Position numbers and translations under genes: made by a program
Shown here: positions 20,229 to 24,221 of the stretch, one piece after another
How the letters are laid out: every line of letters starts with the position of its first letter
How positions within the stretch are numbered: position 1 is the stretch's first letter
Source of the DNA: Burkholderiales bacterium
Lineage (GTDB): Bacteria > Pseudomonadota > Gammaproteobacteria > Burkholderiales > SG8-41
Reading direction: 5' to 3'
DNA: 64,000 nt
Assembly: GCA_022841375.1 (NCBI GenBank)
Contig: JALHRQ010000002.1
Coordinates: 186,001 to 250,000, forward strand
The notes under the pieces: model-generated
Seen by the model: the letters and a program-made list of their open reading frames with translations, nothing else
Databases searched by the model: none
Told to the model about the DNA's origin: nothing

Positions 20229-22304
20229 ATGTCGACCAACAAACTCTATCAAGCCGTATTCGATCCCCGCTCCATCGCGCTGATCGGCGCATCGAGCGAC
20301 GAAAAGAAAAACACCTCGCGTCCGCAGCGTTATCTGAAGCGCCACGGCTACCAGGGTACGCTGATTCCGGTGAATCCGGCACGCGCCGAAATTTTCGGCG
20401 ACAAGGCGTATCCGGATGTGACTTCCATCCCCGGCGAAGTCGATCACGCCTTTGTCATGGTGCCGGCAAAAGCGGTGCCCGAAGCGGTCAAGCAGTGCGT
20501 CGCTAAAAAAATCCCCGTGGTCACGGTGTACAGCGACGGCTTTGCCGAAACCGGCGCGGAAGGCCGCATCAAGCAACTGGAACTGAACGACATCATCCGC
20601 GGCAGCAGCACGCGGCTGGTCGGCCCCAACTGCATCGGCTTGATGAGCACGCAGACCCATCTCGCGCTGTCGGTAAATGCGGTGCTGGAGAAACTCGAAA
20701 TCACCCCCGGCGGAATGGCGATTGTGTCGCAATCGGGCAGCATGATGGGCGGCCTGATGTCGCGCGGCCTCGGCCGCGGCGTCGGTTTCTCCAAACTGAT
20801 TTCGGTCGGCAACGAAGCCGACTTGGGTGTCGGCGAACTTGCGGGCCTGCTGGTCGACGACCCGCATACCGATGCCATTCTGCTGTTCATGGAAACCATC
20901 CGCGATGCCCCGCACCTTGCTGAGGCTGCGCGCCGCGCCTACGCCGTCAACAAACCGGTGATCGTTTACAAGCTCGGCCGTTCCGAAGTCGGCCAGGATC
21001 TCGCCGCTTCGCATACCGGCGCAATGGCCGGCACCGACGAGGCCGTCGACGCTTTTTTCAAGGCTCACGCGATACTCCGCGTAGAAACGCTGGAAGCGCT
21101 GTTCGAACTGCCGGCGCTGGTCAAGGGCCGCAAACCGAACAAAAAACACCGGGTCGCGGCGATGACCACCACCGGCGGCGGTGCAGCCTGCGTGGTGGAT
21201 CGCATCGGCACCTACGGCGTTGATGTCGTCGGCCCGACCGATGCGCTTGTTGCTGCACTGGCGCAGAACAACATCACCATCAACAAGTCACGCATCACTG
21301 ACCTGACGCTCGCCGGCGCGAAAAAGGAAATCTACGGCGGCGTGCTCAATGCGCTGCTGGCGTCCGACCATTGCGACCTGGTGCTGGCAGTCGCCGGCAG
21401 CTCGGCACAGTTTCAACCGCAAATCGCTGTCGAGCCGCTGGTCGAAGCCAACCGTGGCGACAAGGCGCTGGCGGTGTTTCTCGCGCCGCATGCCGAAGCC
21501 TCACTCCAGTTGCTGGCGAGTGCCGGTGTTGCCGGTTTCCGCACGCCGGAGTCCTGCGCGGATTCGATCCGTGCCTGGAAACAATGGGTGCCGCCGCTGG
21601 CGATTCCGGCAGCGGATGCCAAACACACTGCCGCAGCCGACGCCTTGCTGAAAGCGGCGCCGGGCAAACAACTCAACGAACAACAGGCTTGTGGCGTTTT
21701 CGGTGCGCTGGGCGTACCCCAGGCGCAGACTGCGGTGATGACCGATGCCAACGCCAAGGTCGATATCGGTTTTCCGGTGGTCGCCAAAATCCTGTCACCG
21801 GATATCGCACACAAGACCGATGCCGGCGGCGTGGTGTTGAACATCGGCGATGCCGCAGCTCTGAATCAGGCGGCAACGGACATCTTTACCCGCGTCAAAG
21901 CGAAACATCCGCAGGCGAAACTCAACGGCATCCTGGTACAGCGCATGGAGCGTGGACTGGCCGAAGTCATCGTCGGTTACAAACGCGATCCGCAGGTCGG
22001 GCCGCTGGTGGTGATCGGCGTCGGCGGCGTACTCGCCGAAATCTACAAGGATTTCACGATGCGCCTGGCCCCGGTGACGCCGGAAACCGCGCTGCAGATG
22101 ATCGAAGAAGTCAAAGGCCTAGCGGTGATCCGCGGTTATCGCGGCATGACCAAAGGCGACTGCAATGCGCTGGCCGAAGCCGTGGCGGCGTTTTCGCAAC
22201 TGGCTGCGTTCGATGACATCGCCGAAGCCGAAATCAATCCGCTGATCGTCCGCAAAGAAGGCGAAGGCGTGGTGGCCGTGGACGGCCTGATCGTCAGGCA
22301 GTAA
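20229..22304 (+). CDS. NDP-forming acyl-CoA synthetase (CoA-binding plus ATP-grasp)
   Basis: This 691-residue single-chain enzyme of the acetyl-CoA synthetase (ADP-forming)/Pat family makes or cleaves acyl-CoA with NDP/NTP through a phospho-His. Order of domains: an N-terminal CoA-binding Rossmann domain (FDPRSIALIGASSDEKK), the ligase-CoA domain with MAIVSQSGSMMGG and the phospho-His loop ASHTGAMAGTDEAVDAFFK (about residues 260-278), then a C-terminal ATP-grasp half (FPVVAKILSPDIAHKTDAGG and VIGVGGVLAEIYKDF). No GNAT domain is fused. It likely feeds the preceding acyl-CoA dehydrogenase. The stop is 46 bases before the selenoprotein start. Confidence 0.92.
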   Translation: MSTNKLYQAVFDPRSIALIGASSDEKKNTSRPQRYLKRHGYQGTLIPVNPARAEIFGDKAYPDVTSIPGEVDHAFVMVPAKAVPEAVKQCVAKKIPVVTVYSDGFAETGAEGRIKQLELNDIIRGSSTRLVGPNCIGLMSTQTHLALSVNAVLEKLEITPGGMAIVSQSGSMMGGLMSRGLGRGVGFSKLISVGNEADLGVGELAGLLVDDPHTDAILLFMETIRDAPHLAEAARRAYAVNKPVIVYKLGRSEVGQDLAASHTGAMAGTDEAVDAFFKAHAILRVETLEALFELPALVKGRKPNKKHRVAAMTTTGGGAACVVDRIGTYGVDVVGPTDALVAALAQNNITINKSRITDLTLAGAKKEIYGGVLNALLASDHCDLVLAVAGSSAQFQPQIAVEPLVEANRGDKALAVFLAPHAEASLQLLASAGVAGFRTPESCADSIRAWKQWVPPLAIPAADAKHTAAADALLKAAPGKQLNEQQACGVFGALGVPQAQTAVMTDANAKVDIGFPVVAKILSPDIAHKTDAGGVVLNIGDAAALNQAATDIFTRVKAKHPQAKLNGILVQRMERGLAEVIVGYKRDPQVGPLVVIGVGGVLAEIYKDFTMRLAPVTPETALQMIEEVKGLAVIRGYRGMTKGDCNALAEAVAAFSQLAAFDDIAEAEINPLIVRKEGEGVVAVDGLIVRQ

Positions 22305-22350
22305 CAAGAACAGTACGGGTCGTACGCGACCCGGTGGAGGAGCTTGGCAG

Positions 22351-22869
22351 ATGGCACAAAGCCTGGGCAACAAGCTGGACACGGGGGATCGATTTCCCGA
22401 TCTGGATCTGCCGCTGGTCAGCGGCGATACGCAGCGCATCTCGGCGCTGGCCGCCGGGCAATGGAGCGTGGTGCTGCTGTACCGCGGCGATTGGTGAAGA
22501 TACTGTCGTCAGCAGTTGGCTGACTATCAGACATGGCTGCCCGACCTGAAACAACTCGGCATCGCAGTCATCGCGGCTTCGGTGGATACGCAGGAGAACG
22601 CTTGCAAATCCGTCGCTACGCAAAATCTGACCTATCCGGTGGGCCACAGCCTGGATTATCAGGACATCAGCCGCCGCACTGGCGCTTTCATCGAGCATGA
22701 GCGCAAAATCCTCCATGCCACGGGCTTCCTGCTCAAACCCGACCTGACCATACATGTCGCCACTTATTCAACCGGACCGATCGGCCGGCTCACGCCCAAT
22801 GACGTGAGTTCGATCGTGCGACTGAGCCTCGCCAAAACAACAGCACCCCAAGGAGAAAAAACATGTTGA
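22351..22869 (+). CDS. Peroxiredoxin-like selenoprotein with in-frame TGA (Sec49, U-x-x-C)
   Basis: A 172-residue thioredoxin-fold protein can be read from the ATG at 22351 to the TGA at 22867 only if the in-frame TGA at 22495-22497 (codon 49) is decoded as selenocysteine. That codon falls in LLYRGDW-U-RYCRQQLADY. This is precisely where peroxiredoxin-like AhpC/TSA relatives have the Cys of a W-C-x-x-C motif, so the site becomes U49-R-Y-C52. Both sides are family-like: GDRFPDLDLPLVSGD before, and VIAASVDTQENACKSV and FLLKPDLTIHVATYSTGPIG after. GGAGG at 22336-22340 precedes the start, and the 3' end holds the ribosome-binding site of the next gene, overlapping its start. A SECIS-like hairpin follows the TGA. 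Expected role: thiol/peroxide redox chemistry. Alternative: a nonsense mutation or sequencing error. Confidence 0.88.
22503..22530 (+). promoter_or_regulatory. Candidate bacterial SECIS element
   Basis: Just after the in-frame TGA, gtcagc (22508-22513) pairs perfectly with gctgac (22519-22524) around a 5-base loop agttg. Beyond a small internal loop, ctg (22503-22505) can pair with cag (22528-22530). The loop starts 16 bases after the TGA and has G then T at its second and third positions. That fits the known bacterial SECIS pattern (hairpin within the coding region, G among the first loop bases, roughly 16-37 bases from the UGA). It would bind SelB carrying Sec-tRNA. Confidence 0.75.
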
Positions 22870-24221
22870 TGGAACAACTCGCTGACTACGCCATTCGCGA
22901 ACAGACTTCGAAGCTGCCGCCGCAGGTGATCCACCATGCCAAACGGGCGGTGATCGACTGGTATGCAGCGTTGCTGCCGGGCAGCGTGGTCAATCCGGCG
23001 GTGTTGATGGAACAGGCGTTTGCCGAAGATCTTGATCGCGGCCGTGCGCGCCTCGCCACCGGCCGTCGCGCCACATTGCGCGCCGCCGCGCTGATCAACG
23101 GTGCAGCTTCGCATTCGGTCGAGTTCGACGACATTTACCGTGACGCCGGTTACCACCCGGGCAGCCCGACCATTTCAGCGGCGCTGGCCGCGGCACAGGC
23201 GTCGGGCGCATCCGGCGAGCGTTTCCTGCGCGGCGTAATCGTCGGCTACGAAATCTCCACGCGCATCGGTGAAGCGGTGATGCCGTCGCATTACAAGTAC
23301 TGGCACACCACCGGCACCGTCGGCGCGTTCGGCGCGGCGGCCGCGGCTGCGACGATTCTCGGCGCAAACAAGGAACAGTTCATGCACGCGATGGCGACCG
23401 TCGGCAGTTTTGCCTCAGGCCTGCAGCAGGCCTTCCGTTCGCAGGCGATGACCAAGCCGCTGCACGGCGGTCATGCTGCGGATGCCGGCTGCTGGGCAGC
23501 GATGGCAGCGATGAAAGGCCTCACCGGCGCGCTCGACATGCTTGAAGGCGAAGTCGGCTTCGGCAATGCGATGAGCGTGAATCCCGACTGGAACAAGGCG
23601 ACCAAAGGCTTGGGCGTTGATTACCACATCAACCAGATGACGTTCAAAAACCACGGCTGCTGCGGTCACACCTTCCCGTCCATTGACGGCGCGCTGCATC
23701 TGCAGAAGCAGCACGGCTTTACGCACAAGGATGTGAAACACATCCGGCTGCACACCTACAAGGCCGGTCTTAACATCATCGACAACAACAATCCGGAAGG
23801 CGAATACCAGGCCAAGTTCAGCATTCAGTACACCGTCGCCCACGCGCTGGTGCGCGGCAGCGTGCGGCTTAACGCTTTTGACCCCGACCACCTGAGCGAT
23901 CCCGATGTGCGGACGCTGCTGAAAAAGATCGAGCCGATTGCCGACCCCGAGATCTCCAAAGGTTATCCCGGACGCCGCGAATCACGGGTGGAAATCGAAC
24001 TCAACGATGGCCGCAAGTTCGAGCACTTCCAGCCATACCGCAAGGGTGATCCGGAACTGCCCCTGACCGACGAAGAACTCAACGACAAGTTCATTGAACT
24101 CGCCGAGCCGGTGATCGGCAAAGCCGGCGCGGCATCGCTGCTCAAGCAGTTGTGGGATACCGAAAAACTGGCCAACGTCGATTACGACACCGGAAACGTG
24201 ACAAAACGAGCAGCAGGCTGA
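22863..24221 (+). CDS. MmgE/PrpD-family protein
   Basis: This 452-residue protein is related to 2-methylcitrate dehydratase and cis-aconitate decarboxylase. The N-terminal KRAVIDWYAALLPGS, LINGAASHSVEFDDIYRDAG around the active site, HPGSPTISAALAAAQASG, and KPLHGGHAADAGCWAAMAAM are family landmarks, as is HGCCGHTFPSIDGALHL later. It is a divergent paralogue of the 15267 gene. The ATG at 22863 overlaps the end of the selenoprotein gene by 7 bases, and its AAGGAG site lies within that gene, so translation is probably coupled. A Bug gene follows after 39 bases. Confidence 0.9.
   Translation: MLMEQLADYAIREQTSKLPPQVIHHAKRAVIDWYAALLPGSVVNPAVLMEQAFAEDLDRGRARLATGRRATLRAAALINGAASHSVEFDDIYRDAGYHPGSPTISAALAAAQASGASGERFLRGVIVGYEISTRIGEAVMPSHYKYWHTTGTVGAFGAAAAAATILGANKEQFMHAMATVGSFASGLQQAFRSQAMTKPLHGGHAADAGCWAAMAAMKGLTGALDMLEGEVGFGNAMSVNPDWNKATKGLGVDYHINQMTFKNHGCCGHTFPSIDGALHLQKQHGFTHKDVKHIRLHTYKAGLNIIDNNNPEGEYQAKFSIQYTVAHALVRGSVRLNAFDPDHLSDPDVRTLLKKIEPIADPEISKGYPGRRESRVEIELNDGRKFEHFQPYRKGDPELPLTDEELNDKFIELAEPVIGKAGAASLLKQLWDTEKLANVDYDTGNVTKRAAG

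Follow-up and report, generated by a model that had tools for sequence, protein, structure and literature searches.

A very probable selenoprotein of the peroxiredoxin-like UxxC kind, encoded between acyl-CoA synthetase and MmgE/PrpD genes in a betaproteobacterial genus

Background

Does the TGA that interrupts a peroxiredoxin-like (Prx-like) gene in a Burkholderiales genome end the protein, or is it read as selenocysteine (Sec)? The gene lies in the window, the whole stretch of 64,000 nt of DNA that was analysed here, and an earlier note, made from the sequence alone, had proposed that the two short frames around the TGA encode a single Prx-like selenoprotein with Sec in a U-x-x-C active site.

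Results and discussion

The gene and its signals

The features of the locus are the following.

20229..22304, + strand: upstream neighbour, NDP-forming acyl-CoA synthetase (CoA_binding_2, Succ_CoA_lig, ATP-grasp_5)
22336..22342, + strand: Shine-Dalgarno sequence GGAGGAG, 8 nt 5' of ATG 22351 (direct reading)
22351..22869, + strand: putative selenoprotein gene, Prx-like AhpC/TSA family, UxxC; 172 residues, Sec at 49, stop TGA 22867-22869
22495..22497, + strand: in-frame TGA, codon 49, putative Sec; TGA in 5/5 orthologues and in 19/20 distinct matches below 1e-20
22504..22506, + strand: codon 52, Cys (TGT), second residue of U-x-x-C, aligned with the peroxidatic Cys of AhpC
22508..22524, + strand: bSECIS-type hairpin, stem 22508-22513 with 22519-22524, apical loop AGUUG 22514-22518, the loop beginning 16 nt after the UGA
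22851..22855, + strand: AGGAG of the next gene, within the selenoprotein frame (direct reading)
22863..24221, + strand: downstream neighbour, MmgE/PrpD family protein, its start overlapping the selenoprotein frame by 7 nt

Positions 22351-22869 form a single frame whose sole interruption is the TGA at 22495-22497: an ATG-initiated run of 48 codons, the TGA, 123 codons and the final TGA. Coordinates and phase bear out the proposal that the two frames join into one protein, and the joined protein scores 68.2 bits against the Pfam family AhpC-TSA (gathering score 26), more than either half on its own (18.3 and 31.7 bits). None of the NCBIfam models scored over its cut-off on the joined protein, the best being AhpC with 35.1 of 272 bits. 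The signals described in the earlier note were likewise found: a good ribosome-binding site precedes the ATG, the 3' end carries the start signals of the next gene (AGGAG within the frame, then ATG 22863), and the downstream half lacks a ribosome-binding site of its own, the first start codon of any listed open reading frame 3' of the TGA being TTG 22516, for which no Shine-Dalgarno sequence was seen by eye. The product is probably cytosolic, as no signal peptide was seen by eye. Over the whole window no Rfam family reached its gathering score, and ARAGORN predicted no tRNA. AlphaFold2, run on six close sequences, returned a pLDDT of 36.8 and a pTM of 0.26, values too low for the model to count for or against a thioredoxin fold.

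Conservation of the TGA

A contig search for orthologues gave six loci from five MAGs. Five of these loci cover the site of codon 49, which is TGA in every one of them, and the proteins are 83-87% identical. By coordinates and identity the same five MAGs recur as same-genus genomes in a panel of 61 genomes (own, genus, family and order), so that the two counts are not independent. This panel overlaps with two larger ones, an order sample of 399 and a phylum sample of 398 genomes. Some match at E <= 0.001 was present in 38 of the 61 genomes and a match below 1e-20 in 14, all of which have TGA at position 49, in the motif W-U-x-Y-C; the order and phylum samples contributed five further TGA homologues, plus Cys relatives. 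When all panels are considered, the distinct gene matches below 1e-20 have TGA in 19 of 20 cases and Cys in a single one (G532, 40% identical). One MAG that carries the gene (L020, genome G006) bears the title Bordetella parapertussis and corresponds to a genome assigned to the genus of the window; its title is probably wrong.

According to the earlier note the TGA sits exactly where relatives have the catalytic Cys, and the aligned residue in homologues should be Cys or Sec throughout. Both statements are correct for the CxxC-type Prx-like relatives, of which a separate set of 28 loci has Cys at position 49 in 23, TGA in 5 and no other residue, but not for the classical peroxiredoxins, which have Thr or Ser at 49 and Cys at 52. 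In a first alignment (30 loci, giving 27 rows) TGA is found at 49 in 15 rows, Cys in 2 and Thr in 10; the ten Thr rows are classical peroxiredoxins, with Cys (8) or TGA (2) at position 52. The best PDB sequence match, an AhpC (E 2.2e-6), has Ser opposite 49 and Cys opposite 52.

One of the 15 TGA rows, L056 (G022:C1:49224-49490, 27% identity), is of a more distant, third Prx-like type, with the TGA at the equivalent place (RGHW-U-PYC). By eye it is closer to another CxxC group, and it may point to further Sec groups, perhaps of separate origin. In a family tree built on 34 selected rows, L056 not among them, the 19 TGA rows fall on one side of a branch of low support (61/73), with long-branch warnings; a single Sec origin for the two TGA groups of this tree would be allowed by it, at that low support.

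Purifying selection acts on either side of the TGA. Among the 15 pairs formed by six genus sequences, dN/dS is 0.072-0.227 for codons 50-149; for codons 2-48 it is 0.105-0.431 in 14 pairs, the remaining pair having 0.79 at a dS of 0.04. Directly 3' of the UGA, Arg50 is encoded by AGA or AGG in all six sequences; across 12 neighbouring genes, with 270 Arg codons between them, these two account for about 2%. Codons 50-58 taken together are only moderately rare, equally low values being reached in 92 of 4540 neighbouring stretches and in 10 of 153 within the gene. The hairpin contains a run of identical synonymous codons, which falls short of significance (p 0.16). When the window was scanned by codon usage for further frames broken by a TGA, the method did not discriminate, the present gene itself ranking 12th.

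The hairpin downstream of the UGA

The hairpin reads GUCAGC-AGUUG-GCUGAC and lies ten bases 3' of the UGA, with G at the second place of the loop, followed by U. The bSECIS model, as given in the available part of PMC13188914, has a loop of 3-9 nt with G in the first two loop positions, an upper stem of 4-16 bp, a distance of 16-37 nt from the UGA and a minimum free energy of -7.5 kcal/mol or below; the hairpin agrees with it in its loop of 5 nt, its six pairs, its energy when folded alone (-9.3 kcal/mol) and its spacing of 16, which is the lower limit. As to the chance background, a model hairpin of at least 6 bp follows 407 of the 1987 TGAs of the window, and 33 of the 1987 are followed by one whose loop starts exactly 16 nt away.

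The loop AGUUG is present at the 16-nt spacing in all 19 TGA genes, and all six pairs are formed in 18 of them (L041 has one A-C). Covariation was tested on 14 aligned TGA sequences with 500 shuffles, the other five having been fetched afterwards. In the alignment 98.8% of cells are paired, 13 cells have two-sided changes and the covariation score is 0.447, and for each of these values none of the 500 shuffles was as high; two further measures were not beaten, the number of pairs changed on both sides (3) being reached in 254 of 500 shuffles and that of further pair types (4) in 500 of 500. The 13 two-sided cells largely reflect one split, the genus group against the rest, with perhaps three events in all. 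Slid registers of the hairpin are 0-50% paired and have zero two-sided changes. In three Cys homologues, namely that of G532 and two carried on plasmids, no six-pair stem was found at the SECIS place, where at most two pairs form.

RNAalifold recovers the hairpin unaided. Folded as single strands, only 7 of the 14 sequences have it in their minimum-energy structure; for the 51 nt of the window itself a competing pairing (-13.7 kcal/mol) has the lowest energy. The z-scores are weak (-0.06 to -1.18). The case for a SECIS element rests on the fixed position, the invariant loop, the paired changes and the contrast between Sec and Cys genes, rather than on one fold.

Selenocysteine machinery and other candidates in the genome

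The genome of the window (G000; 4.08 Mb, 99% complete) was examined for selA, selB, selC and selD, the look-up suggested in the earlier note, and all four are present over their cut-offs:

C3:51712-51802: tRNA-Sec (selC), 75.9 bits
C3:53498-55381: selB, 421.5 bits
C3:55545-56882: selA, 576.8 bits
C15:11228-12157: selD (L025), 419.3 bits, with one in-frame TGA in the context GGGUGCK (GGG-U-GCK)

The genes for selA, selB and tRNA-Sec cluster within 5.2 kb of contig C3, and selD is on C15. In the 61-genome panel selA was found in 13 of the 14 genomes with a TGA homologue below 1e-20 and in 28 of the 47 others (Fisher p 0.024), a moderate co-occurrence; the exception, G010, has the Sec homologue without a selA match (84% complete, about 470 contigs). 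In G038, selA lies about 2.2 kb from the Sec homologue.

Three further PF00578 genes of the genome each have one TGA at the redox motif, two of the TxxU and one of the UxxC form. Two of these are in tandem (G000:C19:21912-22853; L130, L128), with one in-frame TGA apiece: a protein with WASW-U-TTC, TlpA-like by eye, and a peroxiredoxin with FTDT-U. The pair looks like a two-selenoprotein operon. The third (L127, G000:C4:131379-131756) is a peroxiredoxin with TGA at the peroxidatic place (FTGG-U) and likely a TxxU selenoprotein. The formate dehydrogenase model gave 24 matches in the genome; all of them stayed short of its cut-off, and no TGA was found in any.

Is the TGA read as selenocysteine?

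We estimate a probability of about 95% that TGA 22495-22497 is read as Sec, because of the conserved TGA, the hairpin and the Sec machinery, all computed, in combination with established knowledge of Sec insertion. What the earlier note had put forward, a Prx-like selenoprotein with a U-x-x-C motif, agrees with an AhpC/TSA-family product that has U49 and C52 and with these three lines of evidence.

TGA ordinarily ends translation, and a downstream TTG could start a fragment of 117 residues, as would fit a Cys-type Prx-like gene that has decayed by a nonsense mutation, or suffered a sequencing error, at codon 49. Such an origin is extremely improbable: five other MAGs of the genus and 13 homologues at a greater distance share the TGA with an intact frame after it, dN/dS is below 1 on either side, the hairpin has been kept with paired changes and the Sec machinery is complete. 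We therefore reject both pseudogene and sequencing error, the TGA being conserved across assemblies with purifying selection on both sides. An independent downstream gene is rejected as well, given that TTG 22516 is the first start and has no Shine-Dalgarno sequence by eye, the conserved TGA of the orthologues and the selection on both sides. Very improbable, if less extremely so, is a UGA that acts as a genuine stop, or at which inefficient readthrough inserts Trp or some other standard amino acid, so that a short product is made beside a long one and neither contains Sec. The imperfect co-occurrence with selA (G010) and the weak single-sequence folds of the hairpin would suit such a stop; however, the CxxC relatives have Cys rather than Trp at codon 49, and the genome has both the Sec machinery and a bSECIS-type hairpin that is missing in the three Cys homologues checked.

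On the Sec reading, the ribosome would start at ATG 22351 and arrive at UGA 22495, where SelB with Sec-tRNA would bind the hairpin 22508-22524 and Sec would be inserted in place of termination. Translation would then continue to 22866, beyond the overlapping MmgE/PrpD start.

Active site and probable function

The site W-U-R-Y-C differs from the classical (2-Cys/BCP) peroxiredoxin signature, Thr/Ser-x-x-Cys or TxxU. In the alignments U49 lies opposite Thr/Ser and C52 opposite the peroxidatic Cys of classical peroxiredoxins; the predicted site is therefore thioredoxin-like, UxxC on a Prx-like frame, with Sec outside the peroxidatic position. The selenolate of Sec49 would attack a disulfide or hydroperoxide and Cys52 would resolve it, forming an intramolecular selenenylsulfide that thioredoxin or glutathione would then reduce. 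Judged from the motif and the family, this Sec49/Cys52 cycle is rather probable.

The protein could also be a selenoprotein that acts as a true peroxidase (a peroxiredoxin) instead of a thiol:disulfide oxidoreductase. Sec selenolates react fast with peroxides, which counts for a peroxidase, as do the AhpC-TSA score and the AhpC among PDB sequences. U-x-x-C nevertheless replaces the peroxiredoxin motif Thr/Ser-x-x-Cys, with C52 at the peroxidatic position, and published work treats the UxxC form as distinct from Sec-peroxiredoxins with TxxU (available part of PMC1088965). A peroxidase is thus a real possibility with the odds against it.

'Prx-like' UxxC selenoproteins of PF00578 have been in print at least since 2005, to judge from the available parts of PMC1088965 and PMC13188914 (Table 1); the same kind appears as 'Prx-like protein' in the Sargasso Sea selenoproteome (PMC1088965) and as 'Prx-like 1' in the GOS selenoproteome (available part of PMC2398784). 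The predicted product of 22351-22869 belongs to this already published kind, placed there by domain and motif rather than against the reference WP_010940744. With the published Prx-like (thiol:disulfide oxidoreductase) selenoproteins, UxxC or UxxU, it shares PF00578, UxxC instead of TxxU and CxxC Cys homologues; it differs in being of a betaproteobacterial group (RGDWURYC) with a fixed place between acyl-CoA synthetase and MmgE/PrpD. The TxxU Sec-peroxiredoxins have the AhpC/TSA family in common with it, but in them Sec replaces the peroxidatic Cys, whereas its own Sec would be three residues earlier. The PrxU model NF040737, which we take to represent them, gave 27.1 bits on the window protein, below the cut-off of 270. 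The SelL-related redox proteins (NF040769) are also Redoxin-like Sec proteins, and their model scored 24.7 bits, below the cut-off of 120; SelL has two Sec residues, in UxxU. A Cys 'peroxiredoxin family protein' of Deinococcus aetherius (WP_264777680.1) is 40% identical to the window protein and has YRGDW-C-x-Y-C, but differs by Cys at 49, the lack of a six-pair stem at the SECIS place and other gene neighbours. The motifs RGDWU, RGHWU, DWURYC and HWUPYC were not found in the literature searched, nor was a report of an operon combining selenocysteine, MmgE and peroxiredoxin.

Presence and absence in a catabolic operon

The gene is part of a run that encodes an acyl-CoA dehydrogenase, the NDP-forming acyl-CoA synthetase, the selenoprotein, MmgE/PrpD, a tricarboxylate-binding protein and a PEP-mutase/methylisocitrate-lyase-like protein; an aconitase/LeuC-type protein is encoded further along. 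The synthetase gene is immediately 5' in all five orthologous loci, and the 7-nt overlap recurs in L019-L022, the fifth locus (L023) ending inside the selenoprotein gene. A nucleotide search for the operon in plasmids gave no match.

A survey of 21 genus genomes found the MmgE/PrpD gene in 20, with 19 readable junctions and one at a contig end. The Sec gene directly precedes MmgE/PrpD in 6 of the 19; in the other 13 the synthetase gene does so, about 50-160 nt away, without a Sec gene. A Cys version was found at none of the 19. The Sec gene is thus a cassette that is present (6) or absent (13) within one betaproteobacterial genus, which is a new observation. In the MmgE/PrpD tree five of the six genomes with the Sec gene fall into one clade, with G011 apart, and in the synthetase tree, where one locus is cut, four of five do so, again with G011 apart; these neighbour-gene trees suggest at least two changes of presence or absence in the genus. 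The surroundings of the 13 distant Sec homologues, compared against 14 window proteins only, contained a tricarboxylate-binding protein in 8 of the 13 stretches (the window itself has three of this type) and an MmgE/PrpD relative beside the Sec homologue in one (L089, G031).

Going by its operon, the protein may be an auxiliary redox enzyme of organic-acid/acyl-CoA catabolism, a role to which we give slightly less than even odds. It is a weaker reading than those on the active site, since 13 of the 19 readable operons of the genus lack the Sec gene. In such a role the selenoprotein would perhaps guard oxidation-sensitive enzymes, e.g. the aconitase-family protein. It is possible, if unlikely, that the gene represents a Sec-only lineage serving part-time in one catabolic operon. 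Its product would then act on one of the intermediates of the pathway or shield one of the enzymes, and the gene would be kept as Sec or lost, not turned into Cys.

Conclusions

At least five TGA-bearing selenoprotein candidates, with the 22351-22869 gene and selD included, are present in this one betaproteobacterial genome, compared with a single selenoprotein family in Betaproteobacteria in a 2006 survey (available part of PMC1794560), where the Sec-decoding members had no selenoprotein other than fdhA. Selenoprotein genes are prone to being truncated or omitted by standard gene callers (available part of PMC13188914), and metabolic models of the genus could therefore miss a redox enzyme. 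With the Sec gene present in some of its genomes and absent from others, the genus is a natural setting in which to test why Sec is retained or given up.
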